From Sphingomonas sp. (GTDB lineage: Bacteria > Pseudomonadota > Alphaproteobacteria > Sphingomonadales > Sphingomonadaceae): a stretch of 64,000 nt of DNA. Numbering within the stretch: position 1 is the stretch's first letter; each line of letters begins with the position of its first letter. Positions 26,041 to 40,745 of this stretch are shown here, piece by piece. The notes beneath the pieces were generated by a model, which saw nothing but the letters and a program-made list of their open reading frames with translations, had not been told where the DNA came from and did no database searches. The stretch is from contig PAOI01000022.1 of assembly GCA_002707985.1 (NCBI GenBank), positions 1 through 64,000 on the forward strand. The letters are read 5' to 3'. A program made the translations under genes and the position numbers.

Positions 26041-26940
26041 TCAACGAACGCCGGAGGCGGCGGGTAATTGCGGTGCATCGGGCGGGATCGCCGCGCCGCG
26101 CCAGCGCTCGACCGGCACCACTTCGATTTCGCCTTCCTCACCCTTTCGCCGACGGATCAAAGCCGCCTCCTGCTGGCTGGTCGTGCCGATCGTCGCGCGG
26201 GTGCGCACCCAGAATGTGTCGGAGGTAAAGGACGCGCCCCGCGGCATTGGCACCTGCAGATCGTCAAGATCCTTCTCGCTGAGAAATCCTTGCCGGTCGC
26301 GAATCTCCAGCAATCGAGAGGCGACCACGCCGTCGCGGAAAAGCAGGCCGATCAGTTCCGCATCGGCAGTGTTGAGATTGATCGCGGTCTCCCCCGGCAG
26401 GGCAGTGACGAGTCGTTCCAGCACCGCAGCTACTTTCGGATCGACTCCCGCCATCCGCAACGGGCGGAGGTCAGTCACAGGACCGGTTGCGACGATCAGT
26501 TCGATCAGCCGTCCCGCCTGTTCGGGCGTCGCACCGGCATAGGCGGCGATGTTGCGGAACAGGATGACCGGGGCCACCGATCCGCTGCGCACCATGTTTA
26601 TGTTGAAGCGCCCCTGCGCGTCGGCGATGGCGAGGTCGAAACTGCCGCCTTCGATCGGCGCGCCGCTTTCGGAAAGGCGTGCCCAGGCTTCGTTGCGGTG
26701 ATCCGCCGCGATCTTCTGCTCCTCGGCGTCGCGGCGCAGCGCGACGATCGCCGATAGCTCTCCCCCCCGCGCAATCGCCAGCGCGCGAGAGGCCTCCCGC
26801 ATGCGCAAGCCCCGGTCGAGCGCCAGCTCTTCGCGGCTGACGAGCAGCAGCACCAATGCCGCCGCAATCGCCACGAACATCAGCACGTTGACGAGGATCA
26901 TGCCCTCCTCGCCAACAGCATCGCAGCGCCGACGGGTCAT
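26041..26940 (-). CDS. gspK: type II secretion minor pseudopilin GspK
   Basis: A 299-residue large pseudopilin that caps the pseudopilus tip with GspI and GspJ. N-terminus MTRRRCDAVGEEGMILVNVLMFVAIAAALVLLLV: a short basic leader, prepilin cleavage after the Gly of EEG, then the hydrophobic helix. The long globular part includes INLNTADAELIGLLF, the helix-hairpin-helix-like GspK region. The ATG at 26940 overlaps the gspJ stop (ATGA). The ORF-track extension to 27057 lies in gspJ and was dropped. Last gene of the minus-strand group LppC-like, gspJ, gspK. Confidence 0.93.
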   Translation of the reverse strand: MTRRRCDAVGEEGMILVNVLMFVAIAAALVLLLVSREELALDRGLRMREASRALAIARGGELSAIVALRRDAEEQKIAADHRNEAWARLSESGAPIEGGSFDLAIADAQGRFNINMVRSGSVAPVILFRNIAAYAGATPEQAGRLIELIVATGPVTDLRPLRMAGVDPKVAAVLERLVTALPGETAINLNTADAELIGLLFRDGVVASRLLEIRDRQGFLSEKDLDDLQVPMPRGASFTSDTFWVRTRATIGTTSQQEAALIRRRKGEEGEIEVVPVERWRGAAIPPDAPQLPAASGVR

Positions 26941-27500
26941 TCGCCGCGCCTCGTCTCTTCCGCAACCCGCGCGGGCAAGGTGACGATACGACGCAGCGTA
27001 CCGCTCCCCGGCCCCTGCCCCGCCAGTTGCAAATCGACCGACACGGCCCGCGGCCAATCGTCGGCATGATCGTCATCGATCGGCCAGCTGTCGTGCCATT
27101 CGCCGTCCCAATACCGCCAGCGCGCCGCAGTGACGCCGGGCAACAGCAATTGCGGCATGCCACCGATGGTGCGGACCATCGTCTCCCCGCTGAGGCTATA
27201 GCTTAACGTCACCGGAGCCCCGCCCATGCCCGGCGCCGCGCGCGTGAAACTGATGCCGGTCGCGGTTCCGGTGATCCGGCCACGCGCAATCTGATCGAGA
27301 TCGTCGGTGACGACATAGGTCGTACGCTGAAGCTGAGTCAGCCGGTCGAGCCGCACTTCGGTGCGCCGCTGCACCCCCAATATGCCGTCGACCATCGCAA
27401 GGCCTGCCACTGCGATCAGCGCGAACAGACCCAGCGAGATCATCACTTCGATCAGCGTGAAGCCCGACTCTCGCCCGGCCTCACGCGGATGCACGCTCAT
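26937..27500 (-). CDS. gspJ: type II secretion minor pseudopilin GspJ
   Basis: 187 residues with a type IV prepilin leader, RESG|FTLIEVMISLGLFALIAVAGLAM, cleaved before Phe with the conserved Glu at +5. The rest has the GspJ hallmarks: the region QLQRTTYVVTDDLDQIARG and a late WRYWDGEWHDSWP segment. The ATGA overlaps on both sides tie it to the upstream periplasmic-binding-like gene and to gspK. Confidence 0.93.
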   Translation of the reverse strand: MSVHPREAGRESGFTLIEVMISLGLFALIAVAGLAMVDGILGVQRRTEVRLDRLTQLQRTTYVVTDDLDQIARGRITGTATGISFTRAAPGMGGAPVTLSYSLSGETMVRTIGGMPQLLLPGVTAARWRYWDGEWHDSWPIDDDHADDWPRAVSVDLQLAGQGPGSGTLRRIVTLPARVAEETRRGE

Positions 27501-28531
27501 GCTCCCGAACTCGCCGCCACTTTCTCAAAGCCGTCATGCGATGCCAGCAGGATCGCAAAGTCGCGCGCGACGCTGCCGTCGGTGCGGAACCGAACCGCGC
27601 CCGTGACGCAGCGGAACCCCTGGCTGGCGAGCAACCCCTCGCCGCTCAATGCGTCGCGCTGGCGAAGCGCGTGGCAGATGCTGGCAGCGTCATAGGCAAG
27701 CGCCGTGATCGTCCCTGCGCTGCCGCCGTTGCGCGCTTCATATTCGGTCGCGAAATCGCCGAATTTTTCCGGGTCGGGGCTGGCGATCCATGCACCATCG
27801 AGCGCTTCCAGCGCGTCGGGGCGATTGTCGATCGCCTGCACCGTGCCAAGCAATTGTATCCCCGAACCGCGCAGCCGCCGCGCAACCGCAAGCATCGGTT
27901 CGCCGCTGCCGGGAAGCAGCACGGCATCGGGCGTCGCATCGGCTGCAAAGGCCAATGCTTCGGATGTGGCCTGAACCACAGAGACACGCATGCCCAGTTC
28001 GGACTCCATCCGCCCGGCCTCGACCGCCGAAGCGGCGCTCCATGGCGTCCCGTCATCGACGACTGCGACTGCGCGGACGCCGCGCCCGCGCGCATAGCGC
28101 AGGATCGCACTGGTCACCTGAGACGGCGTAATCCCGAACACCCAATTGCCCGAAGAACGCTGAACCGCGTCGTTGGTGAAGGAAATGATCGGCACGCGCC
28201 CGTTCACGCGCCCCACCACCGCAGGCACTTCAGGTCCGGTGAGCGGACCCAGGATCGCACCGGGATTGCGGCGCAGCGCCTGTACCGCCGCCGCCGCGGC
28301 ACCTTCGGCTGTCCCGACAGTGTCATATGCCTGTACCATGTCGGCACTTTCGGCGAGCAACGCCGCCTGCCGCATGCTAAGCCCCAACGCCGCATGCTGA
28401 CCGGTGAGGGGAAGCAGCAATGCCAGCGGCCGCCGGTCCTCGCGACCTGCCGCGAATGAGGGGAGTGATGCCAATGCCGCAGATGCTGCGATTCCCGATC
28501 CTGTCGCGCGCAGCAGCCGGCGCCGGTTCAT
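27497..28531 (-). CDS. LppC/LpoA-like periplasmic-binding-fold protein inside the T2SS operon
   Basis: 344 residues. The N-terminus MNRRRLLRATGSGIAASAALASLPSFAAG has a twin Arg/basic stretch and Ala-rich hydrophobic region and looks like a Tat-type signal. The mature part is a type 1 periplasmic-binding fold: LALLLPLTGQHAALGLSMRQAA, then ILGPLTGPEVPAVVGRVNGRVPIISFTND, as in LppC/penicillin-binding-protein activators and branched-chain amino-acid binding proteins. It overlaps gspJ by ATGA, so it is made with the pseudopilins. It might sense a peptidoglycan fragment or open the wall for the secretion machine, but this is inference. The start is 23 bp from the divergent gspN start. Confidence 0.75.
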   Translation of the reverse strand: MNRRRLLRATGSGIAASAALASLPSFAAGREDRRPLALLLPLTGQHAALGLSMRQAALLAESADMVQAYDTVGTAEGAAAAAVQALRRNPGAILGPLTGPEVPAVVGRVNGRVPIISFTNDAVQRSSGNWVFGITPSQVTSAILRYARGRGVRAVAVVDDGTPWSAASAVEAGRMESELGMRVSVVQATSEALAFAADATPDAVLLPGSGEPMLAVARRLRGSGIQLLGTVQAIDNRPDALEALDGAWIASPDPEKFGDFATEYEARNGGSAGTITALAYDAASICHALRQRDALSGEGLLASQGFRCVTGAVRFRTDGSVARDFAILLASHDGFEKVAASSGA

Positions 28532-28554
28532 CGGCGCATCCAGGCGAAGGTTCA

Positions 28555-29247
28555 GTGGCACGTCGTTCTATTATCCTGTTCGCGGTGATCGGCATAGTCT
28601 CCTACGCCGTGGCAATGCTGGTCACGATGCCGGCAAGCGTGGTGTTCAAGAACCATAGCTGGCGCACCGGCGTATCGGGCACCTTGTGGTCCGGCGAAGT
28701 GGGCATCGCGGGCGGCAGCACGCTGCGCTGGCGCTTCGCGCCGCTGCGTTCGCTGACTAGCCTGGGCTTCGCTGCCGACTGGACCGCCAGCGGGCCCGGC
28801 ACCGATCTGGGCGGGCGAATGCTGATGCGAACGGGCCGCGTGGTGCTGGATCAGGTGAGCGGTTCGGCGCATGCCAGCCTGTTGCAACTGGCGGGCGCGA
28901 GCCTGCCCTTTACCTGCGACTTCACGATGCAGGTGAAGATGGAGCGCATCGCGATCGGCGGGTCGGGCCAGAGGATGCAGGGCAGTGCGATCACCGATCC
29001 GGGTAGTTGCACAGGTCAGGGCGTTTCCACACCGGCCAGCCCGGTCCCTGCCCTCTATTTCGACGCACAGGCGATCGGGAATGAATCGCGGCTTCGCCTT
29101 ACCCCCGCGACGCAGCGGCGCAATGCGCTGGTCTCGGCAGTGTTGCAGGCCAATGGCAGCATGGAAATCACCGCCACGCCCGAGGGCGCGACCACGCTCC
29201 CGTTTCTGGGCATCCCGCCCGGCGCAACGATCCAGACGCAGTTCTGA
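28555..29247 (+). CDS. gspN: type II secretion protein GspN
   Basis: 230 residues with one N-terminal membrane anchor (RRSIILFAVIGIVSYAVAMLV) and a periplasmic beta-rich body containing VFKNHSWRTGVSGTLWSGEVGIAG, the GspN pattern. The GTG at 28555 follows GAAGG; the 45 residues upstream in the ORF track are antisense to the LppC-like signal region. It stands alone on the plus strand between two minus-strand gsp groups. GspN is an accessory, not universal, T2SS component with an inner-membrane location. Confidence 0.85.
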   Translation: MARRSIILFAVIGIVSYAVAMLVTMPASVVFKNHSWRTGVSGTLWSGEVGIAGGSTLRWRFAPLRSLTSLGFAADWTASGPGTDLGGRMLMRTGRVVLDQVSGSAHASLLQLAGASLPFTCDFTMQVKMERIAIGGSGQRMQGSAITDPGSCTGQGVSTPASPVPALYFDAQAIGNESRLRLTPATQRRNALVSAVLQANGSMEITATPEGATTLPFLGIPPGATIQTQF

Positions 29248-29303: not shown

Positions 29304-30521
29304 TCACATCGTCACGAGATCGTTGAGGTTGATGATCGGCAGCAGGATCGCCAGCACCATCATCAGCACCAGCCCGCCCATCACGAGCAGCACGAGCGGT
29401 TCGGCGAGCGCGACCAGCGTCGATACCTGCGCATCGAGTTCGCGCTCAAGCTCGCCCGAGGCTCGCGACAGTGCGGGCGCCAGCTTGCCGCTGGATTCGC
29501 CCGATGCGACGATCGCGGTGAGCATCGTCGGGAATACCCCCGATTCCTGCATCGCAGCGCGCAGGCTCATCCCTTCGCGCACGCGCATCGCAACGCCGAG
29601 CGTCTTTTCGCGGACATGGTGATTGGGCGTAACCGCGGCGGCCGCCTGAAGCGCCTCGACCAGAGGCACCGCGCTGCCAACAAGCGTCGCCAGGCTCCCG
29701 GCGAAGCGCGCGGCGTTGAGCTGGCGCGAGAAACGGCGCAGCGGTGATTTTTCATTGAACAGGCGGTGCAGTGTCAGCCGGTTCTTCGGCACACGCGACC
29801 AGCGTCCCAGGATCAGCGCAGCAACCGCAATCCCGAGCAACAACCATAGCCCGAAGGTCTGGAGAAACCAGCTGATCGCGATCAGCGCGCGCGTCAGGAA
29901 CGGCAGGTCCGCCCCCCGGCTGACGAACACCCGCACGATATCGGGCACGACATAGACGAGCAGCAGCACCATCATGCCGAACGACACCGTTGCGAGCAGC
30001 GCGGGATAGAGCAGCGCCAGTTGCAGCTTCTGTCCGTTCGCCTGACGATTCTCCACGAACTCGGCGAGATGCTCGAGCACGCTGGGCAATTTGCCCGACG
30101 CTTCACCGGCGGCAACCGAGGCGCGATAGAATTCGGGAAACGCCCTGGGATGCTGGCCGAGCGCCACTGCGAAACTGCGTCCGTCGAGGATCGCCGCGCG
30201 TACGTCGAGCAGCAGCGTGCTGACGGTAGCCTGTTCCGATTGCGTCGCGACGAGGCGCAGCGCCTCCTCGACCGAAATGTCCGATCCGACCAGCGTCGCG
30301 ATCTGTCGCGTCAGCGTCGCAAGATTGCGCGAACTGATCCCCCGGCCGCGCAGCGCAGGCAGCACGACGCCGCGCCCCCGTTGCGATGCGACCTCCACCG
30401 AAACTGGCAGCAACCCCTGTTCGCGTAGCGTCGCGCGCGCGGCGGCAGCACTGACGGCCTCGATCACGCCCTTTTTCGCTGCACCCGATTTATCGGCGGC
30501 ACGATAGGAATAGGCCGGCAT
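29304..30521 (-). CDS. gspF: type II secretion inner-membrane platform protein GspF
   Basis: 405 residues, the usual length. Opens MPAYSYRAADKSGAAKKGVIEA, has the two repeated T2SSF domains (first FPEFYRASVAAGEASGKLPSVLEHLA, second VFPTMLTAIVASGESSGKLAPAL) and three membrane spans, ending LILPIINL-like. It works as the rotor/platform contacted by the GspE ATPase. It is separated from gspE by the DUF421 gene but on the same strand. Confidence 0.97.
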   Translation of the reverse strand: MPAYSYRAADKSGAAKKGVIEAVSAAAARATLREQGLLPVSVEVASQRGRGVVLPALRGRGISSRNLATLTRQIATLVGSDISVEEALRLVATQSEQATVSTLLLDVRAAILDGRSFAVALGQHPRAFPEFYRASVAAGEASGKLPSVLEHLAEFVENRQANGQKLQLALLYPALLATVSFGMMVLLLVYVVPDIVRVFVSRGADLPFLTRALIAISWFLQTFGLWLLLGIAVAALILGRWSRVPKNRLTLHRLFNEKSPLRRFSRQLNAARFAGSLATLVGSAVPLVEALQAAAAVTPNHHVREKTLGVAMRVREGMSLRAAMQESGVFPTMLTAIVASGESSGKLAPALSRASGELERELDAQVSTLVALAEPLVLLVMGGLVLMMVLAILLPIINLNDLVTM

Positions 30522-31110: not shown

Positions 31111-32607
31111 CTACCCCTCGTCCCGGACGACGCGGGCGATCTCTTCGACCGTCGTCGTGCCGTCCCGGACCTTTGCGATGCCATCGTCGAGAAGGCTGGG
31201 GTTGTTCGCGCGGGCGTGGCGTTCGAGTTCGGCTTCGGATGCGCCGTCATGGATCATCGACTGGAATGTATCGTCGACGGCGATGACTTCGTAGATGCCC
31301 GCGCGGCCACGATAGCCTTCGCCATGGCACTGGTCGCAGCCGACGGCGCGCCACAGCTTCTTGCCCGGTTTGATCGCCCCGCCGAGCAGCACTGCATCGG
31401 CTTCGGTCGCTTCATCCTTGCGGCGGCATTCGGGGCAGAGGCGGCGGACGAGCCGCTGGGCGCAGAGACCCACCACCATCGGCGCGAGCAGATAGCGCTC
31501 GACACCCATGTCGATCAGGCGGGTGACCGATCCCACCGCACTGTTGGTGTGCAGCGTCGACAGGACGAAATGGCCGGTCATCGCTGATCGCACCGCGACC
31601 TGCGCGGTTTCATGGTCGCGGATTTCGCCGACCATGATCACATCGGGGTCCTGACGCAGGATCGCGCGCAGGCCGCGCGCGAACGTCATGTCGGTGCGCG
31701 GATTGACCTGCGTCTGGGCGACGCCGGCGAGCTCATATTCGATCGGGTCCTCGACCGTCATCACATTGCGCTTGCGGTCGTTCAGCCGGGTGAGCGCAGT
31801 GTAGAGCGTGGTCGTCTTGCCCGAGCCGGTGGGTCCGGTGACGAGCAATATGCCGTGCGGGCGCTCGAGCAGGCGACCGAAGACCTCGCGGTCACGCTCG
31901 CTCATGCCCAGGCCGCCGAGTTCGAGCTTCATGCTGCCGCGTTCGAGCAGGCGCAGGACCACACGTTCGCCATGCTGGGTCGGGATGGTGGAGACACGCG
32001 CATCGACATCGTGACCGCCGATGCGCAGCGTGACACGGCCATCCTGAGGCACGCGCTTTTCCGCGATATCGAGCTTCGCCATCACCTTGATCCGGCTGAC
32101 CAGCAACGGCGCGAGCGCGCGCGGGGGCTCGATCATGTCGCGCAGCACGCCATCAACGCGAAAGCGGACGACGAGGCGCTTTTCCTGCGTTTCGATATGG
32201 ACGTCCGACGCGCCTTCCTTGATCGCTTCGAGCAGCAGCGCATTGATCAGGCGGATGACCGGCGCATCGTCGCGCGTGTCGAGCAGATCGTCGACGGCCG
32301 CAGCGCTGTCGGCGAGCGCGGCAAGGTCCATATCGCCCAGATCGATATCCGAAGACGCGCCGCCCACGCCCGAAAAGGCAGCGGCAAGCGCGGTGGCGAA
32401 GACGTCTTCTTCCACCGCGACGAACCGCGCATCGGGCGCGACCCGCTGCACTTCGAGCAGCGCATCGAGCGATGCGTCGCGCCGATGCACGCATTCGGTG
32501 CCGCCGTCAGCGCCGGGGCGCAGCAGCACCCCCTGTCGGCGCGCAAAGCCATAAGGGAGCGTGGGCGGTGCGAAGTCATCGCCGGAAAGGGCAAGTGTTT
32601 CGTTCAT
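31111..32607 (-). CDS. gspE: type II secretion ATPase GspE
   Basis: 498 residues. N1E-like N-terminus, then Walker A GPTGSGKTTTL, Asp box and Walker B (VMTVEDPIEYEL, ILRQDPDVIMVGEIRD), His box STLHTNSAVG, and the tetracysteine zinc module CPECRR...CDQCHGEGYRGRAGIYEV. Hydrolyses ATP in the cytoplasm to drive pseudopilus growth. ATG 32607 overlaps the gspM stop (ATGA); the 35 upstream residues in the ORF track belong to the gspM region. Bound to the membrane through GspL, whose gene is two upstream. Confidence 0.97.
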   Translation of the reverse strand: MNETLALSGDDFAPPTLPYGFARRQGVLLRPGADGGTECVHRRDASLDALLEVQRVAPDARFVAVEEDVFATALAAAFSGVGGASSDIDLGDMDLAALADSAAAVDDLLDTRDDAPVIRLINALLLEAIKEGASDVHIETQEKRLVVRFRVDGVLRDMIEPPRALAPLLVSRIKVMAKLDIAEKRVPQDGRVTLRIGGHDVDARVSTIPTQHGERVVLRLLERGSMKLELGGLGMSERDREVFGRLLERPHGILLVTGPTGSGKTTTLYTALTRLNDRKRNVMTVEDPIEYELAGVAQTQVNPRTDMTFARGLRAILRQDPDVIMVGEIRDHETAQVAVRSAMTGHFVLSTLHTNSAVGSVTRLIDMGVERYLLAPMVVGLCAQRLVRRLCPECRRKDEATEADAVLLGGAIKPGKKLWRAVGCDQCHGEGYRGRAGIYEVIAVDDTFQSMIHDGASEAELERHARANNPSLLDDGIAKVRDGTTTVEEIARVVRDEG

Positions 32608-33098
32608 TGCGCGAAATCCGCCGTGACGCTGACCTGCCCCGGCGCGGCGCCGCGCTTCATGTCCAGGCGAGTGAGGTTGAGGCTGCTGGTGGACGCAAGA
32701 TCGGCGATCCATGCAAGGACATTGTCGTACTTCGCCTGCGCGATTTCGACGCGGATGCCTTGCTCCGCCTCGCTGATCGCAGCGTCGATGCCGAAACGCT
32801 GCGCCGAGGCCGTCAGGATATCGCTTGCCGGGCCGCTCTGCATCGCGGGCGGCGGCGTGGCGGAAAGCGACCCGGCAGCGCGGATGCGCGCATTGAGTGT
32901 TTCATAGGTGCGGATCTGCTGCAGAGCATCGGCACGCGCCGCCTGCAGCGGCTTTACCACGCCATAGATCAGGATCAGCGCGGCGAGGAACAGGCCAAGC
33001 CCGCCGACCATCCAGCGCTCGCGGTTGCTGAGCCCTTCCCACCACGCGCCGATGCGCGCGAACATGGGTTCGATTACGGAGATGCGGACACGGCTCAT
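32604..33098 (-). CDS. gspM: type II secretion protein GspM
   Basis: 164 residues with one membrane helix (WMVGGLGLFLAALILIYGVV, about 29-48) preceded by an ISNRER-like motif (GLSNRERWM), typical of GspM. A coiled region and a ferredoxin-like periplasmic domain follow (FGIDAAISEAEQGIRVEIAQAKYDNVLAWI). It partners GspL. ATGA overlaps on both ends show translational coupling with gspL and gspE. Confidence 0.93.
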   Translation of the reverse strand: MSRVRISVIEPMFARIGAWWEGLSNRERWMVGGLGLFLAALILIYGVVKPLQAARADALQQIRTYETLNARIRAAGSLSATPPPAMQSGPASDILTASAQRFGIDAAISEAEQGIRVEIAQAKYDNVLAWIADLASTSSLNLTRLDMKRGAAPGQVSVTADFAQ

Positions 33099-34216
33099 GC
33101 GGCGCTCGCCGTAATGCGGAGCGTGCCGTCGGTCGCCTGCGCGACAGTGGCCGCTATACCGGCGGCACGAAGCGCGGTTTCGACGCGTGCAGCCATCCCC
33201 GCTTCGGCAGGAGCGAAATCCATCGTCAGCGTATCCGCCTGAAATGCCAGCGCCTGCATGGTAAGTCCGCCGCCGATCGACGCCAGCGCACCGGAAATGC
33301 GCGAGAGCATCGGCAGGAACGGTTGGGGCACGCCGCCCGAAGCAGCGACCGGCAACATATCGGCGACCGAACCGGCCACGTCATCGCCCAGCGCCGCGCC
33401 CGGTGCGAGTTGCGCCACCAGCGCGCGCGTTTCGGCTTCGCGGCGGTCGGCAATCACATGGAGCATCACCGTATCGCCGATCGCGATCAAGACATGCGCC
33501 GCCACACCGATCGCGAGGATGATCGCCGCGCGACGCCAGAAACGGCTCCCTGCCCCGCCGCGCGCAAATGCGCCCTGCCGCAGATCGAGCGCGGGTCTGG
33601 CAAGCTGCGCGACCATCGTTTCGCGGTCGAACATGCCTTCCCTTGCAGGCTGCATCGCCTCGGGAAACGGTTCCCCGCTATGGACGATCGCGGGACGACC
33701 GGCGGCTTCCCAGGCAGCACCAAGCAGCCCTTCAGGGCAGGCAAAGCCGCCTTCATCGGTACGCACCACCGCGCGACCGCCATCGATATCGACCCACCAT
33801 TCGCCCGGCGACACCGGCGGCAGCGCAAGTGCGTCGGGCACCATCGCGGCGTGGCCAAGGCCATGTTCGTTCGCGATGGCGACCCAGCGTTCCATCACCT
33901 CACGGCGCACGACACCGACCAGATAGCGTTTGTCGCCGACCGATTCGCCGAGAGCGAGATGCACCTTGTCGATCGGATCGGCGATTCGGTCCTCGATCGC
34001 AAAGGGCAGCGCCTCGCGCCGTTTTGCCGGGGAAGCAAGCGGCAGATCGACCGCGAGCATTCGCACTGATTCGGCAGGCACAAGCAAGGTTGCAGGCCCC
34101 TCCGGCTCGACTATGCTGGGCACGCCGCCGGCAAGGCTCCACACGCCGTCGGCACGATCCGGCACCGCCGAAACCGCTTCGTCGGATGTCATCATATTTT
34201 CATCGACCGAACGCAT
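33095..34216 (-). CDS. gspL: type II secretion protein GspL
   Basis: About 373 residues. The cytoplasmic actin-like domain includes LASPAKRREALPFAIEDRIADPIDKVHLALG, which binds GspE. One membrane span follows (AAIILAIGVAAHVLIAIGD), then a periplasmic ferredoxin-like domain. ATG 34216 was used; ATG 34195 or 34192 inside are possible and have a slightly better upstream sequence. The divergent gspG start lies only 9 bp away, so both promoters must sit in coding sequence. First gene of the gspL-M-E group. Confidence 0.9.
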   Translation of the reverse strand: MRSVDENMMTSDEAVSAVPDRADGVWSLAGGVPSIVEPEGPATLLVPAESVRMLAVDLPLASPAKRREALPFAIEDRIADPIDKVHLALGESVGDKRYLVGVVRREVMERWVAIANEHGLGHAAMVPDALALPPVSPGEWWVDIDGGRAVVRTDEGGFACPEGLLGAAWEAAGRPAIVHSGEPFPEAMQPAREGMFDRETMVAQLARPALDLRQGAFARGGAGSRFWRRAAIILAIGVAAHVLIAIGDTVMLHVIADRREAETRALVAQLAPGAALGDDVAGSVADMLPVAASGGVPQPFLPMLSRISGALASIGGGLTMQALAFQADTLTMDFAPAEAGMAARVETALRAAGIAATVAQATDGTLRITASAA

Positions 34217-34225
34217 GGGACAGCG

Positions 34226-34699
34226 ATGCGCATAGTTTTCCAACAATTTTGTGACAGCCTGACAGCCGCACGCACTGTCCGCAAGGATTCGCCGTCGGGG
34301 GAAGACGGACTGACGCTCGTCGAAATGCTGGTCGTGCTGGTGATCATCGCGATCGTCGGCAGCATGATCGCGATGAATGTCATCGACCGTCCGGATCAGG
34401 CGCGCATCACCACGACCAAAACCAATATGAGCACGGTGTCGGCCGCGCTGAAGATGTACCGGATCGACAACGGCATGCTCCCGACCACGCAACAGGGACT
34501 GCAGGCGCTGGTCGAAAAGCCGTCGACGCCGCCGGTCCCTTCCGCATGGGCGGATGGCGGCTATCTTTCCTCCCCTGCGCTCGACGGGTGGGAACGCCCC
34601 TTTGTCTATACCAATGAAGGATCGCGGTTCACGCTCAAGTCGCTCGGTCGCGACGGCAAGCCCGGTGGCGAAGGCGTCGATGCCGATATCGAAGGCTGA
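34226..34699 (+). CDS. gspG: type II secretion major pseudopilin GspG
   Basis: 157 residues. Prepilin cleavage site GEDG|LTLVEMLVVLVIIAIVGSMIAMNVIDRPDQAR, Glu at +5. The GspG globular domain follows with TNMSTVSAALKMYRIDNGMLPTTQQGLQALVEKP and the calcium-loop region DGWERPFVYTNEG. The leader is longer (28 residues) than usual; no other in-frame start exists. Forms the pseudopilus shaft after processing by a prepilin peptidase not found in this window. Confidence 0.96.
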   Translation: MRIVFQQFCDSLTAARTVRKDSPSGEDGLTLVEMLVVLVIIAIVGSMIAMNVIDRPDQARITTTKTNMSTVSAALKMYRIDNGMLPTTQQGLQALVEKPSTPPVPSAWADGGYLSSPALDGWERPFVYTNEGSRFTLKSLGRDGKPGGEGVDADIEG

Positions 34700-34821
34700 T
34701 CCCGCGCCGCTTTCCAAAGCTGAACGAACGCCGTTGATCCGGTTCATTGACGGTCCATATCGCGCCCGGCATCCCATGTTTCGGCGCCACAATATTGCGG
34801 TACGGATGGGGGATTATAGGG

Positions 34822-35190
34822 ATGACGAAAGCGTTTTTCGGCTGTGCGGTCGCAACGGCACTCGCCGCGTTTGCCGCGCCTTCCGCAGCCTTTGCGCAGG
34901 ACAGCTATAATCGTGAGGTGGTCATCGAAAATGCCGGCAATTCGGCGATCTACTTCATCTATTTCTCGCACAGCGACGACGACCACTGGGGCGACGACCG
35001 GCTGGGCGAGGAGGAAGTCGTCGAAGCCGGTGCGACGCGTCTGTTCGACTTCAATGACGGCAGCGGCGAATGCGTGTTCGACGTCCAGGCCACATTCGAG
35101 AATGGCGAAACCGTCGAACTCTATGAAGTCAATGTGTGCGGCGTATCGACCCTCGACGCAAACGAACAGCGTATGTGGATCGAGGAATAG
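34822..35190 (+). CDS. small secreted beta-rich protein, unknown function
   Basis: 122 residues with a clear Sec signal (MTKAFFGCAVATALAAFAAPSAAFA|QDS). The mature part of about 97 residues has the pattern VVIENAGNSAIYFIYFSHSDDDHWGDDRLGEE, then a DDGSGEC-type acidic turn and a second Cys (VNVCGV), so one disulphide is likely. Similar small exported domains occur widely without known function. ATG 34822 has GGGATTATAGGG upstream; the 25 residues before it in the ORF track lack a signal peptide. Between gspG and gspH, same direction: a possible secretion substrate or accessory of this T2SS. Confidence 0.65.
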   Translation: MTKAFFGCAVATALAAFAAPSAAFAQDSYNREVVIENAGNSAIYFIYFSHSDDDHWGDDRLGEEEVVEAGATRLFDFNDGSGECVFDVQATFENGETVELYEVNVCGVSTLDANEQRMWIEE

Positions 35191-35266
35191 TCGCTTCATC
35201 GGCGCGCGCGAGCCCCTGACGCGCTCCGGCCAACTGCCAGCATTAGCCGATGTCCGCGACGTAGCA

Positions 35267-35719
35267 GTGCATGAACGCGGACTGACTCTGATCGAAATGC
35301 TGATCGTCCTGGCGATCATCGGCGTTGCCGCAGGTGCCGTGTCGCTGGGGATCGGCAGCGTAACGCGCGCGCCCAATGTCGAAACCGAAGCGCGGCGGCT
35401 GGCAACGCAGCTTCAGGCGGCGGCCGACGATGCGATGCTGGGCGATCACATGATCGCCTTCACCGTCGAAAAACACGGCTATGGCTTTGCCGACTACGGC
35501 TCGGACGGGCTGGTCGCGCGCACCGGAGAAGCGTTCGGGTTTCACCGACTGCCCGGTGGGATCGTGATGACACTGAACGTCAAACCGCCGGTCGTGCTGG
35601 GTGTCGACGGCGCGGGACAACCGCTGCTCGCCACGATCGAAAGCGGCGACCAGCGCTGGAGAGTGACGTTCGACGGCCTGACCGCGAGCGCGATACCTGC
35701 GACGGCATCCGGATCATGA
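35267..35719 (+). CDS. gspH: type II secretion minor pseudopilin GspH
   Basis: About 150 residues. A very short leader, VHERG|LTLIEMLIVLAIIGVAAGAVSLGIGSV, with Glu at +5, then ETEARRLATQLQAAADDAMLGDHMIAFTVE as in GspH. The GTG at 35267 is the only reasonable start: the ORF-track frame reads on upstream through the secreted-protein gene in another frame. It overlaps gspI by ATGA. Confidence 0.88.
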   Translation: MHERGLTLIEMLIVLAIIGVAAGAVSLGIGSVTRAPNVETEARRLATQLQAAADDAMLGDHMIAFTVEKHGYGFADYGSDGLVARTGEAFGFHRLPGGIVMTLNVKPPVVLGVDGAGQPLLATIESGDQRWRVTFDGLTASAIPATASGS

Positions 35720-36078
35720 GCACGGGCGCCGTACAATCCGGCTTTTCGCTGATCGAGGCGCTGGTCGCGCTGTCGGTGCTGGCGATTGCCGCCGTGGGGC
35801 TGACGCGAACGGTGGAATCACACATCGATTCGACGCGCGCGCTGGAACGGCGGGCCACCGCGATGTGGGTTGCCGAAAACCGGCTGGCCGAACTGTCGCT
35901 CGGCGCGCGCGGGATGCCGGAGCAAGTCGAGATGCTCAACCAGCAATGGCTGGTGACCGCGAAACGCGAACCCACCGACGATCGCGCAATCGAACGCGTG
36001 CGGATAGCGGTGCGTGCTCCCGGCGAAGAAGCGCCACTTGCAACGCTCGATGGCTTCGTTGAAGCAGAGCGTCGATGA
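35716..36078 (+). CDS. gspI: type II secretion minor pseudopilin GspI
   Basis: 120 residues. Leader MSTGAVQSG|FSLIEALVALSVLAIAAVGLTR with Glu at +5, followed by RRATAMWVAENRLAEL and QWLVTAKREPT, typical of GspI. The small size fits. It is coupled to gspH and gspC by overlaps and forms the pseudopilus tip complex with GspJ and GspK encoded on the other strand 9 kb away. Confidence 0.93.
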   Translation: MSTGAVQSGFSLIEALVALSVLAIAAVGLTRTVESHIDSTRALERRATAMWVAENRLAELSLGARGMPEQVEMLNQQWLVTAKREPTDDRAIERVRIAVRAPGEEAPLATLDGFVEAERR

Positions 36079-36839
36079 GTCCGCGAATCGCCCTTTCCCC
36101 GCGTCAGGCGCGTACGACACTCGATCTGCTGACCGGTGCGGTCGTCATTTCGGTCGCCTTTGCGCTGGCCGGTCTGACCTGGCGGATTGCCGGACATGCC
36201 GGCACCGGCGCGATCACGGTTCCGGCAGGCACGCCTGCTCCGGCAACCGACATTGCGCCTGCACTCGCTCTGGCACCGTTCGGCACGGCAAGCGTAGAGG
36301 CGATGCAACGCACGTCGCTGCCGCTCGAGCTGAAGGGCGTGGTTTCGGCCGTCCCGGCGTCGCTCTCGACTGCCTTCATCTCTGTCGAAGGCGGGCCGGT
36401 GGAGAGTTTCGGTGTGGGCGCGAGCATCAGCGGCGGCACGATCCGCAGCATTCTGCGCGACCGGGTGGTGATCGAAAATGGCGGACGCATCGAGGCGCTA
36501 ACCTTCCCCGATCCGACGCTTTCGCCCGAACAGCGTCAGGCACAGGGCGCGCCGCAGGAGCCCCAAGGCGGAGCTGCAGCCGCGCCCGCGCAGCCCGCAA
36601 GCGCAGCCAGCCTGTTGCAGCGTTTCGATGCCACTCCGGGAGCGGACGGCTTGCATATCGGCGACAGCCCGCCCCCGGGGCTGATGCCCGGCGATGTCAT
36701 CGAATCGATCAACGGCGCCGCGCTCAACGATCCGGCATCGGCCGCTGCTGCCATTCAGGCGGCACAGGCAAATGGTAACGCAAGCGTCACAGTGATCCGC
36801 CAGGGTAACCGGCTGACCGTCACCATGCCTCTCCGCTAG
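36075..36839 (+). CDS. gspC: type II secretion protein GspC with PDZ domain
   Basis: 254 residues. One membrane span near residues 17-38 (LLTGAVVISVAFALAGLTW), a homology region (LPLELKGVVSAVPASLSTAFISVEGGPVESF), a Pro/Ala/Gln-rich linker and a C-terminal PDZ-like domain (LHIGDSPPPGLMPGDVIESINGAALNDP). It links the inner-membrane platform to the secretin. Located just upstream of gspD, the usual order. Confidence 0.92.
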   Translation: MSPRIALSPRQARTTLDLLTGAVVISVAFALAGLTWRIAGHAGTGAITVPAGTPAPATDIAPALALAPFGTASVEAMQRTSLPLELKGVVSAVPASLSTAFISVEGGPVESFGVGASISGGTIRSILRDRVVIENGGRIEALTFPDPTLSPEQRQAQGAPQEPQGGAAAAPAQPASAASLLQRFDATPGADGLHIGDSPPPGLMPGDVIESINGAALNDPASAAAAIQAAQANGNASVTVIRQGNRLTVTMPLR

Positions 36840-36850
36840 GGATATCTTTC

Positions 36851-38911
36851 GTGCATTCGATCCGCATTTCCACGCATTTCCTGGCGGTCATTGGCATGTT
36901 GCTGACGCCGCCCGCAACGGTGATGGCACAAACCGTGCCGGTTCAGGATGCCGCGGATATCGTGATCAACATGCGCGGCGTGGAAATCGCCGATGTCGCC
37001 GAACAGATTTCGCGGATCACCGGTCGGACCCTGATCCTCGATCCCGCCGTGAAAGGCGTGGTCACCGTCACGTCCGCCCAGCCGCTGACGCGAGAAGGCG
37101 TGTGGGAGCTGTTTCAGTCGGTGCTGCGCGCCAACGGCTTTGCGGCTGTGCGCTCAGGCCGTTCATGGCGGATCGTGCCGCAGGCGAGCGCCGTTCGCGA
37201 CGGCGGCACCCCGACCCGCAGCACTGCCGGGCAGGAACTGACGACGCGGATGATCCGCCTGTCGAACGTGCCCGCCGGGGAGGCTGCGCGGGTCGTCCGG
37301 CCGCTGGTCGCCAATTTCGGCAGCGTCGAACCGCTGACCAGTCCCAATGCCATCGTCGTTACCGACTATGCCGACAATGTGCGCCGCATCGAAGCCATCG
37401 TCCGCCAGCTCGACGGCGATGGCGGATCGAGTTTCGCCACGATCACTCTGCGCCATGGCAATGCGGCGCAAGTAGCTGAATCGCTGCAGAATGTGATGGG
37501 CGGCGGCAACGGAGAGCAGACGGTGGGCGCCACCCGGATTGCCGCCGACACGCGCAGCAACGTCGTGATCGTGCGCGGTACTCCCGCCGCTGTGGCGGAG
37601 GCACGCCGGATCGCCGCTTCGCTCGACGAACCCGGTGGCGCCACTCCGATAACCCGCGTTTTCCGCCTTTCCTATGCCGATGCCGAAAGCGTGACGGAAG
37701 TGCTGCGCGGCACGCTGGGAGTCGAATCCGAAGCGACCAATCCGGTGGCGCGCAGCCTGTCGGGCAATGGCTCGACACGGATCAGCCCGACGCGCGCGCT
37801 CTCCAACCTTACTTCGGCCGGCAGCGCCGATGCCAACGACATGGATGCCGCCTCGCAAGCCGCTTCCGGCCAGATTTCCGCGACGCGCGCCGAAACGCCC
37901 GCCGGCTTTTCAACGCCCGACGTGACCGTGCAGCCCGCGCCGGACATCAACGCCATCGTCGTGCGCGGGACACCCGCGATGATGGCCACTATCGAGGAAT
38001 TGCTGGCCGAGCTCGATGTGCGTCGCCCGCAGGTGCTGATCGAAGCGGCGATTGCCGAAATCACCGGCGACGATGCGGAATCGCTGGCGGTGCAGCTGGG
38101 CACGAGCGGCGCGGTGCTCGACGATATCGAGGGGGCGGGAACCTCATTCAGCACGCCCGGCCCGTCGCTGGGCACGATCCTGACGCTGCTGGGCGTGCCC
38201 GCCGGCCGCCTTTTGGGCGACGGCTTTAGCGGCAATGTGGCGATCGGCGACGATTTCTCGATCCTGGTTCAGGCACTGGCGACCTCGACGCGCGCCAATC
38301 TGCTTTCCACGCCGCAGATCACGGTGGTCGACAATGGCATGGGCGAATTCGTCGCGGCACAGGAAGTGCCGTTCGTAACCGGATCGATCCTGACCAGCGA
38401 TTCCGGCGCGACGCCGTATACCACGATCGAACGCAAGGATGTCGGCATCACATTGCGCGTGCTGCCCCGGATCAACGCGGGCGACACGATCCGGCTCGAC
38501 GTGACGCAGGAAGCCTCATCAATCTCTCCCGTACAACTGAGCAGCGCCTCCGACATCATCACCAACAAGCGATCGGTGACGACGACGGTGCTGGCCGACA
38601 ATGGCAGCACGATCGTGCTCGGCGGCCTGACGTCCGACAATTATCAGCAGGTGATTTCAGCGGTCCCCATCCTGGGCCAGATCCCGATCATCGGCGAGCT
38701 TTTTCGATCGCGACAGGAAAGCCACGACAAACGGACGCTGTTCATTTTCCTGAAGCCCACCATCTTGCGCACTGGCGAGGATGCTTTGGCAGCGGCGGCG
38801 GATCGCTATGCCCGGCTGCGCGCTGAAGAGCAGGAAAATCGGGAGCATCATTCGATGCTGCTGCGCCCGCCCGCCCCGCGGCTGACGGTCGAAATCGACG
38901 GGATTTACTGA
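36851..38911 (+). CDS. gspD: type II secretion secretin GspD
   Basis: 686 residues. Signal peptide (FLAVIGMLLTPPATVMAQ), N0 domain (INMRGVEIADVAEQISRITGRTLILDP), N1-N3 modules (IRLSNVPAGEAARVVRPLV; TITLRHGNAAQVAESLQNVM; VFRLSYADAESVTEVLRGTL) and the secretin pore domain (RPQVLIEAAIAEI, EVPFVTGSI, VGITLRVLPRI, IPIIGELFRS). The end RTLFIFLKPTIL is typical, and a short tail follows. GTG start at 36851; the ATG at residue 17 would shorten the signal peptide. Its stop overlaps the convergent gspC-like gene by 7 bp. Confidence 0.97.
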   Translation: MHSIRISTHFLAVIGMLLTPPATVMAQTVPVQDAADIVINMRGVEIADVAEQISRITGRTLILDPAVKGVVTVTSAQPLTREGVWELFQSVLRANGFAAVRSGRSWRIVPQASAVRDGGTPTRSTAGQELTTRMIRLSNVPAGEAARVVRPLVANFGSVEPLTSPNAIVVTDYADNVRRIEAIVRQLDGDGGSSFATITLRHGNAAQVAESLQNVMGGGNGEQTVGATRIAADTRSNVVIVRGTPAAVAEARRIAASLDEPGGATPITRVFRLSYADAESVTEVLRGTLGVESEATNPVARSLSGNGSTRISPTRALSNLTSAGSADANDMDAASQAASGQISATRAETPAGFSTPDVTVQPAPDINAIVVRGTPAMMATIEELLAELDVRRPQVLIEAAIAEITGDDAESLAVQLGTSGAVLDDIEGAGTSFSTPGPSLGTILTLLGVPAGRLLGDGFSGNVAIGDDFSILVQALATSTRANLLSTPQITVVDNGMGEFVAAQEVPFVTGSILTSDSGATPYTTIERKDVGITLRVLPRINAGDTIRLDVTQEASSISPVQLSSASDIITNKRSVTTTVLADNGSTIVLGGLTSDNYQQVISAVPILGQIPIIGELFRSRQESHDKRTLFIFLKPTILRTGEDALAAAADRYARLRAEEQENREHHSMLLRPPAPRLTVEIDGIY

Positions 38912-39348
38912 GGCGGGTCTTCGGCTTGCGATACGTCGTCAGTGGCGATCGCGACGCGAATCTGCCGCCCGCCGCGTGTGAACGATGCCGCATCGATCGC
39001 GAGCGCGTCGAGCCGCCAGCCATCGACGCTTTCGCCAATCCCTATCGTACGGCTCGATCCGTCGGCCAGCCGCACCAGCGCGACCGCCCCATCGCCCAAC
39101 CGTCCGACAATGCCGATCAGATCGGGCGCGTCGGCAGGAAGCGCGTCATCCCCCGCCGCCTGCACGAACAGGCGCCGCGAATAAGCGGTGGCGATCGCGG
39201 GCGGAGGTTCGATCGCCAGCGGGCCAGTCGGCGCCGGGTCGGCGCTCGTCGGCACAGCGCGGCCGCCGGCAAGCATAAACGGCGCGGCGAAGGCCAACAG
39301 GATTACGCACGCCAGCGCGAACAGCAGGCGGCGTTCGATCACTGCCAT
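38905..39348 (-). CDS. second GspC/PilP-like inner-membrane protein
   Basis: 147 residues. One N-terminal span (RRLLFALACVILLAFAAPFML), a Pro-rich linker, then a compact periplasmic module (DLIGIVGRLGDGAVALVRLADGSSRTIGIGESVDGWRLDAL), which is the HR/PilP-like beta domain found in GspC and PilP that docks on a secretin. There is no PDZ domain. ATG 39348 starts within the previous gene (10-bp overlap). Third gene of a minus-strand trio convergent with gspD. The fold assignment rests on pattern and context. Confidence 0.65.
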   Translation of the reverse strand: MAVIERRLLFALACVILLAFAAPFMLAGGRAVPTSADPAPTGPLAIEPPPAIATAYSRRLFVQAAGDDALPADAPDLIGIVGRLGDGAVALVRLADGSSRTIGIGESVDGWRLDALAIDAASFTRGGRQIRVAIATDDVSQAEDPPQ

Positions 39349-39806
39349 GGCGTCACCGCAATGCCGCTCATGCGCACGCCTCCTCCCTCGCCCTGCGCGA
39401 ATTGCCATTGGCGCAAGCGGACCAGCGGCGGGTCGCGACCAATCGTGTCGGCAAAGGCAATCACCGACTTTTCGGGACCGGAAATGCGAAATGCGACCGC
39501 GGCAAGCCCTTGCGGCGCGCGGCGCAGTTCCAGCATCTCGACCAGCAGGCCGCCAGAGGTGGCGACCGAACGGATCCGGTTCGACAGCGCCCGCGACGCC
39601 GCCGTCGCATCGCCCTGCGTCGCGCGCCATGTCGCTTGTACCAGCGGCTGCGCTGCGCGTTCGGGGCGCGCAGCCTGCGAGACCAGCTGAGCATGTTCCG
39701 TGCGCGCGTCGGACAGACGGTCGAGCGATTGCAGCGCCTGCGGCAGGATCAGAGCCGCGCAAAGCAACCCGCCCGCCGCGCCAGCGCCAAGCCGCGATAT
39801 CCTCAT
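39339..39806 (-). CDS. second GspM/PilO-like protein (T2SSM_b type)
   Basis: 155 residues. One N-terminal hydrophobic helix (RLGAGAAGGLLCAALILPQALQ), a short coiled stretch, then a ferredoxin-like periplasmic domain (VATSGGLLVEMLELRRAPQGLAAVAFRISGPEKSVIAFADTIG) as in GspM subtype b and PilO. Overlaps the upstream gene by ATGA and the downstream gene by 10 bp, so the trio is a single translation unit. Confidence 0.68.
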   Translation of the reverse strand: MRISRLGAGAAGGLLCAALILPQALQSLDRLSDARTEHAQLVSQAARPERAAQPLVQATWRATQGDATAASRALSNRIRSVATSGGLLVEMLELRRAPQGLAAVAFRISGPEKSVIAFADTIGRDPPLVRLRQWQFAQGEGGGVRMSGIAVTPWQ

Positions 39807-40339
39807 CGCAGCGGCCCGGAGAACGTCACGATCATAGTTCCATCGCCGCGCGTCTGACCGGTGACACGCAGCGCTTCGAATATCGTCTCATGGCGCAGTG
39901 CCGCACGCAGTCGATCGGGATCGGGGGCATTTGCTTCGATCTCGATCAAACCCTGCGCCGTCATCCCCACGCGCACCAAGCCAGCATCGGTCGGCAGCGC
40001 CCGCGCCAGCGCCTCCAGCACCGATCCCGGCACCGGGCGGGCAACCATATTCGCCATATCTTCACGCGCCACACGGTCGCGTTTCTCGCTGGAAAATCGC
40101 GGGGCAAGCAATGCGCGCAATTTCGCATTCTGCGCTTCGACGGACGCAGCCGACAGCGAAGCGCTGATCCAGAGCGCCAATGGTCCCGCCGCAATAAGCA
40201 GCCCGGCCAATGCAGCGACGCGCCAGCCATGCGGAGGTCTCGCTTCGGAGCGCGTTTCCCGCGCACGGAGCCCGGCGAGCAGTTGGCTCACCAGGCTTTC
40301 GCGCCGGGGCGCGGGTTCGGAATCGGGCCAGAGCTCCAT
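39803..40339 (-). CDS. second GspL/PilN-like protein
   Basis: 178 residues. Short cytosolic N-terminus, a membrane helix at about 45-67 (VAALAGLLIAAGPLALWISASL), a coiled segment and a periplasmic ferredoxin-like domain (PGSVLEALARALPTDAGLVRVGMTAQG and LRAALRHETIFEALRVTGQ). This is the layout of PilN or of GspL without its actin-like cytosolic half. First gene of the trio. A complete gspL also exists in the locus, so the role is additional, not replacement. Confidence 0.65.
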   Translation of the reverse strand: MELWPDSEPAPRRESLVSQLLAGLRARETRSEARPPHGWRVAALAGLLIAAGPLALWISASLSAASVEAQNAKLRALLAPRFSSEKRDRVAREDMANMVARPVPGSVLEALARALPTDAGLVRVGMTAQGLIEIEANAPDPDRLRAALRHETIFEALRVTGQTRGDGTMIVTFSGPLR

Positions 40340-40382: not shown

Positions 40383-40745
40383 CTAGTTGTTGCGGCTGAC
40401 AGTATAGGCCGTCCCGTCGGCAGTGAAGGACACGAGATGCTGTGTCCCGTCGGTGCAGGTCGCGCGCCAGGTCGGAAGCCCGTCGCGATCCGAAACGCGT
40501 TCGGATTCGGTCACGCCCTGGCATTGCAATCCGGCGTCGATCAGCGCACGGACAAGCACGACATTGCGCGTATTGTCGTTCATTTCAATAATCGCGGATT
40601 GCACATTGGTCGCCATGCCATTGTCGATCGCATCGTTGGCCACCACAGCGTTTTCGGACGGCAGGGTGTTGGTTTCCGGCGATTCCCCGCAGCCTCCAAG
40701 CGTCAGTGCAGCGGCGGCGGTGGCGGCGAATATCCAGCGTCTCAT
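40383..40745 (-). CDS. small lipoprotein
   Basis: 120 residues with a lipoprotein signal MRRWIFAATAAAALTLGGC, Cys at 19 in an LGGC lipobox. The residue after Cys is Gly, not Asp, so sorting to the outer membrane is likely. The mature part has two further Cys (QCQG, ATC) and no recognised family. Start at 40745 fits the signal; the ORF-track start adds 13 residues. Confidence 0.75.
   Translation of the reverse strand: MRRWIFAATAAAALTLGGCGESPETNTLPSENAVVANDAIDNGMATNVQSAIIEMNDNTRNVVLVRALIDAGLQCQGVTESERVSDRDGLPTWRATCTDGTQHLVSFTADGTAYTVSRNN

Follow-up and report, generated by a model that had tools for sequence, protein, structure and literature searches.

Beside the secretin gene of a complete type II secretion system (T2SS), a 64,000-nucleotide stretch of Sphingomonas sp. 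(assembly GCA_002707985.1, contig PAOI01000022.1, positions 1 to 64,000; hereafter the window, contig C22 of a 3.48-Mb draft genome) carries three small overlapping genes, l1, m2 and c3. Their products are GspL-, GspM- (XpsM/PilO-) and GspC(HR)-like, an assignment supported by relatives, profile comparisons and AlphaFold models. With a probability of roughly 60%, we consider this trio a reduced, Xps-type GspL-GspM-GspC module acting as an accessory collar of the neighbouring T2SS, whose split gene order we call type B. As the trio is found with that T2SS version only, type B probably operates with two distinct collars in the inner membrane. The trio genes are the following:

l1, 40339-39803, minus strand: 178 residues, short GspL-like bitopic protein
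m2, 39806-39339, minus strand: 155 residues, bitopic protein resembling GspM subtype b, XpsM and PilO
c3, 39348-38905, minus strand: 147 residues from the ATG at 39348, GspC-like bitopic protein with a transmembrane (TM) helix and an HR-type domain

The genes overlap head to tail by a few bases (ATGA between l1 and m2), and at its stop c3 runs into the end of gspD (36851-38911, plus strand), which makes c3 and gspD convergent, just as the earlier note had described them. The open reading frame (ORF) caller's 285-residue TTG frame for c3 was rejected as over-extended. Relatives were gathered from searches of 151 genomes of the family and 61 of the genus, and the order l1-m2-c3 is the same in more than 25 genomes. 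The laboratory strain Sphingomonas leidyi DSM 4733 (L093) is among the trio carriers. Judged by this conserved order and by ratios of nonsynonymous to synonymous substitution (dN/dS) that stay well under 1 in all close pairs, the trio is not a set of chance ORFs.

Identity of the trio proteins

Profiles of the trio families were compared using hhalign with those of the classical counterparts in the same loci, giving 50.7 for l1-GspL, 69 for m2-GspM (81 once a fused member was left out) and 88.6 for c3-GspC, the last spanning 102 columns, while the controls GspH, GspI and GspN (pseudopilins and GspN) reached at most 1.1. Against Xps-like L, M and C, all three values lay between 98.6 (l1-L) and 99.4 (c3-C). 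A match between the m2 and c3 profiles (98.6) was discarded, being due to a fused protein in locus L057 and gone once that protein was left out.

The l1 protein consists of a cytoplasmic tail with the motif ESLVSQLL (PSLxxRL-type), a TM helix at about residues 43-62, a long helix and a periplasmic domain. Its AlphaFold2 model (predicted local distance difference test score, pLDDT, 90) retrieved the periplasmic domains of EpsL, PulL and XcpY at Foldseek ranks 1-5 (E 2e-3 to 4e-2, probability 1.0) and, with the hhalign value against GspL, identifies that domain as ferredoxin-like and of the GspL type. In the m2 model (pLDDT 93), a TM helix is followed by a ferredoxin-like periplasmic fold of the PilO/GspM type, with PilO as the Foldseek match (E 3e-5; PilO 2rjz, E 1.2e-4) and EpsM further down. 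PF10741 (T2SSM_b) matches 13 of the 27 aligned m2 family members (best 4.4e-6); searched against the trio's own genome it gave no match, the window m2 being too diverged by itself. For c3, a single TM helix plus an HR-type domain follows from the profile match to GspC; PF11356 (T2SSC) matches 3/27 of its relatives, and a PDB profile search returned one weak match, GspC 7oio (E 0.41). The same PDB search with l1 and m2 yielded chance matches only. Relatives, profiles and folds thus bear out the PilN/GspL-, PilO/GspM- and PilP/GspC-like layouts that the earlier note had proposed; the searches against GspL, GspM and GspC that it called for succeeded with family profiles, which pair with L, M and C, and not with the window proteins alone, which match no curated family.

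Domains absent from l1 and c3

The cytoplasmic domain of GspL binds the ATPase GspE. In the window l1, about 42 residues precede the TM helix and the cytoplasmic actin-like GspE-binding domain is absent, so a unit formed by the trio cannot recruit a motor by itself. The idea of a second inner-membrane assembly unit therefore needs correcting: an L/M/C-like platform module is supported, but not one that engages the motor alone. Full-length l1 relatives (348-360 residues) occur in Xps-like operons only; the cytoplasmic domain is partly eroded in L056, L060 and L106, and most type B loci have none. What is kept is a PSLxxRL-like motif in a short conserved predicted helix, present in 27 of 28 l1 tails, against 5.6 expected from shuffling. 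The c3 protein ends soon after the HR domain, has no PDZ match and lacks a second periplasmic domain of the PDZ or coiled-coil kind. In Xanthomonas, the cytoplasmic domain of XpsL binds the ATPase XpsE, and XpsC has one helix only where the second periplasmic domain would sit (PMC11981180).

Association with one T2SS lineage

The classical T2SS of the window is complete. Its gspD, gspE, gspF, gspL, gspM, gspC and gspN are matched by Pfam or NCBIfam, which confirms that full-length gspL, gspM and gspC accompany the trio:

gspK, 26041-26940, minus strand: PF03934 3e-4, just under the cut-off
gspJ, 26937-27500, minus strand: PF11612 2.7e-7
gspN, 28474..29247, plus strand: PF01203 6.8e-8
gspF, 29304..30521, minus strand: TIGR02120, 417 bits
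gspE, ATPase, 31111..32607, minus strand: TIGR02533, 640 bits
gspM, classical, 32604..33098, minus strand: PF04612 1e-27
gspL, classical, with cytoplasmic actin-like domain, 33095..34216, minus strand: TIGR01709, 166 bits; PF05134
gspG, gspH and gspI, pseudopilins, 34226..36078, plus strand: synteny and hidden Markov model matches, N_methyl in gspH
gspC, classical, with HR and PDZ domains, 36075..36839, plus strand: PF11356 2e-14; PDZ_2
gspD, secretin, 36851..38911, plus strand: TIGR02517, 481.8 bits; PF21305, N0

In the trio's own genome, PF00482 found gspF and, on contig C26, a pair of genes for shorter T2SSF proteins (probably Tad-like), but no other GspF-like platform protein, which leaves the trio without a platform to itself.

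Classical GspL and T2SS were present in 57 of the 61 genomes of the genus sample, in two arrangements: a colinear C-D-E-F-G-H-I-J-L-M locus (type A) and the split F-E-M-L / G-H-I-C-D locus (type B). The trio occurs in 21/21 type B genomes and 0/36 type A genomes, counts that are not phylogenetically independent, as the species tree may account for part of the A/B split. In trees of GspD, GspE and GspF, the A, B and Xps-like sequences each form one separate group. The trio is kept even where it lies away from gspD, at about 10 kb (G085, L105/L106), at about 20-25 kb (G048, L055/L103) or on a different contig (G205, L038 vs L065).

The closest full-length relatives of the trio lie in Xps-like operons of the family, which have no other L-M-C genes. 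L058 and L059 have an operon ordered E-F-G-H-I-J-L-M-C-D, with no L, M or C genes besides the trio homologues, and the order is repeated in L104 and L114. The M proteins of L058 and L059 score just above the PF10741 cut-off and reach 38-56 bits with NF040576 (T2SS_GspM_XpsM; cut-off 60), and the full-length C relatives match GspC models weakly. A distant c3 match in G136 belongs to such an operon and was rejected as an unlinked short trio.

A single-protein scan with c3 recovered ten loci, all from Sphingomonas or Sphingosinithalassobacter, the named relatives being Sphingomonas species and Sphingosinithalassobacter portus. A class-wide sample of 385 genomes gave no trio match outside the family, with sensitivity limited by the scoring of nine candidates per genome.

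Selection and gene fusions

Pairs of close relatives give the trio dN/dS values of 0.2-0.7; these stay under 1 yet exceed those of gspD, gspE and gspF several-fold (values for gspG, and for gspM in one pair, were set aside as inflated by over-extended ORFs). On these ratios it is under purifying selection and evolving several times faster than the T2SS core; compared with L032, the window shows 97% identity in gspD and 54-74% in the trio. Fusions join l1 to m2 (L107, L108) and m2 to c3 (L057). In three genomes of one genus (G116, G235 and G281; loci L053, L136 and L137), l1 is preceded, in the same protein, by residues 1-46 of GspF (single-comparison E 7e-15), and the gspF gene of each genome keeps an intact start. 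Selection, fusions and the GspF segment together suggest that the trio forms one complex, on the GspF/GspE side of this T2SS. The link of the trio to this one T2SS, which the earlier note had suggested, finds support in co-occurrence with type B and in the GspF segment of that one genus.

A probable accessory collar and its alternatives

HR domains bind the N0 domain of GspD-type secretins. As an accessory collar, the trio would be built on an l1-m2 pair held by TM helices and ferredoxin-like periplasmic domains, with the HR-type domain of c3 seated on the N0 ring of the GspD that both collars share, where it may compete or alternate with classical GspC. The short conserved PSLxxRL helix would dock the module, on the cytoplasmic side, to the existing GspF/GspE/GspL core, from which the collar would have to borrow its motor because l1 has no ATPase-binding domain. 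In this reading, a single secretin and a single motor would be fitted with two kinds of collar at the inner membrane, and the net effect may be secretin scaffolding or substrate choice. XpsC, XpsL and XpsM form a trimer (PMC11981180), and OutB, a TM helix plus HR domain, binds OutD N0 at the OutC HR site and helps secretin assembly (PMC9239104). Since one N0 site can be occupied by the HR domain of either GspB or GspC, competition or alternation between c3 and GspC is plausible.

The Xps platform of Xanthomonas is among the closest counterparts: L-M-C order beside D, an M protein of subtype b/XpsM, ferredoxin-like folds in L and M, and a C protein with an HR domain but no PDZ. XpsCLM is, however, the essential and sole platform of its system (PMC11981180), whereas the trio lies beside a second, classical L/M/C set, has no E, F or pseudopilins in its unit and lacks the XpsE-binding domain in l1. 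With classical GspL-GspM-GspC it shares domain types and a three-protein logic; that set is already present in the window, l1 and c3 lack its actin-like and PDZ domains, and the sequences are related at profile level only. A bolder version, which we put forward tentatively, is that the type B T2SS of sphingomonads is an obligate chimera with one secretin and one ATPase/GspF core, in which a motor-coupled classical and a motor-free Xps-type C-L-M collar would alternate or form a mixed ring on GspD and gate substrates, possibly surface lipoproteins.

Several observations weigh against the accessory collar, besides the phylogenetic non-independence of the genome counts. The window l1, m2 and c3 alone match nothing in Pfam or NCBIfam; the fast divergence of the trio would also fit a dispensable accessory; G136, the one type B genome encountered without the short trio, carries an Xps-like operon instead; and the genome assembly of the window is about 90% complete, so that a partner of the trio could be missed.

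It is also conceivable, although we favour it less than the collar, that the trio is a GspB/OutB-like secretin anchor or targeting factor, with l1-m2 as a mere membrane collar and no part in substrate choice. The architecture of c3 (TM helix, HR-type domain, no PDZ), the OutB precedent of N0 binding and secretin assembly (PMC9239104) and the missing motor-binding domain, which fits a static role, all speak for it; c3, like GspB, would be an extra bitopic HR protein beside GspC able to occupy GspD N0. GspB, however, is described in gamma- and betaproteobacteria and works with GspA or GspS (PMC9239104), whereas c3 comes with two PilN/PilO-like partners, and c3 is closest to Xps-like GspC among the GspC profiles compared. 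Of those genes of the window that were scanned, none proved to be gspA or gspS, though no search of the wider genome was made for them.

A substrate-specific adaptor, resetting the T2SS for certain substrates only, such as the Tat-exported lipoprotein PhoX, appears unlikely as the general explanation. A gene for a PhoX-family phosphatase with a twin-arginine translocation (Tat) motif and a lipobox stands head-to-head with l1 in 25 loci (L034-L037, L041-L044, L046-L052, L055, L086, L088-L094 and L110), and in L055 the pair is kept though the trio lies away from gspD. In the genus sample, PhoX adjoins the trio in 14 of 15 trio genomes that have it. Fast divergence of the trio would fit changing substrates, and XphA/XqhA of Pseudomonas aeruginosa, as cited in PMC6567927, offer a precedent of alternative GspCD subunits, orphan paralogous T2SS parts that form a hybrid with one machine; that precedent concerns a GspC-GspD pair, whereas the trio is L-M-C without a secretin. 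On the other side, PhoX had no match in six trio genomes of the genus sample, including that of the window (G000), many type A genomes have PhoX and no trio, and c3 carries neither PDZ nor another obvious substrate domain. A Pho box sought in the shared l1-phoX intergenic region did not exceed shuffled sequence in nearly all loci, and shared Pho-box control was rejected on that comparison. Because PhoX is undetected in the genome of the window, it was likewise rejected as general cognate substrate for the window and cannot be the general purpose of the trio. The earlier proposal that the trio tunes the T2SS to other substrates is only suggested, by the PhoX linkage in other strains. A role with lipoproteins is possible, given the gspN gene in this locus and the part of GspN in lipoprotein export in Acinetobacter (PMC12802150).

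That the trio is a functionless, decaying remnant of a lost Xps-like T2SS would fit its domain loss, fast divergence and lack of its own E and F, but this was already disfavoured and is very improbable given the intact ORFs, the purifying selection, the presence in 21/21 type B genomes of the genus sample, the conserved tail motif and the new domain fusions. Least probable of all is a place for the trio in a type IV pilus or Tad machine, as a PilNOP-like part: m2 is structurally nearest PilO, the N-like protein has a short cytoplasmic tail, the third protein is of HR type, the order resembles pilN-pilO-pilP and one full-length c3 relative weakly matches pilP_fam, yet no PilM, PilQ or pilus genes lie beside the trio, which adjoins gspD, tracks the type B clade and has its relatives inside T2SS operons.

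The components and folds of the trio are known already. In the literature searched, which left out most subscription journals, we found no description of two L-M-C sets on one secretin, one of which has lost its motor domain and goes with a single T2SS lineage. The field has yet to settle the stoichiometry of the T2SS and what its C-L-M collar does; a natural two-collar machine, one collar without a motor link, would separate secretin docking, substrate handling and ATPase coupling, which are fused elsewhere, and the matter could be tested by simple deletions in sphingomonads.

Neighbouring genes and a related strain

A small putative lipoprotein gene (40383-40745, minus strand) immediately precedes l1 and is read in the same direction. 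In other loci, a gene of similar size goes together with a pair of amidohydrolase-like genes (assigned from position), so that this gene probably lies outside the trio. A further candidate type B component overlaps the start of gspJ (27497-28561, minus strand): its product of about 292-354 residues looks like a periplasmic binding protein by eye, has no Pfam, NCBIfam or PDB match, and has homologues in about 15 places, the type B loci that extend far enough, and in no type A locus. Between gspG and gspH, a 122-residue ORF with a Sec-type signal is inserted (34822-35190, plus strand), with no homologue in any other locus retrieved. In a freshwater Sphingomonas, a transposon screen for colony morphology struck gspL (RS07760) and gspH (RS07770) (PMC11340318), the spacing of which appears to be that of type B.

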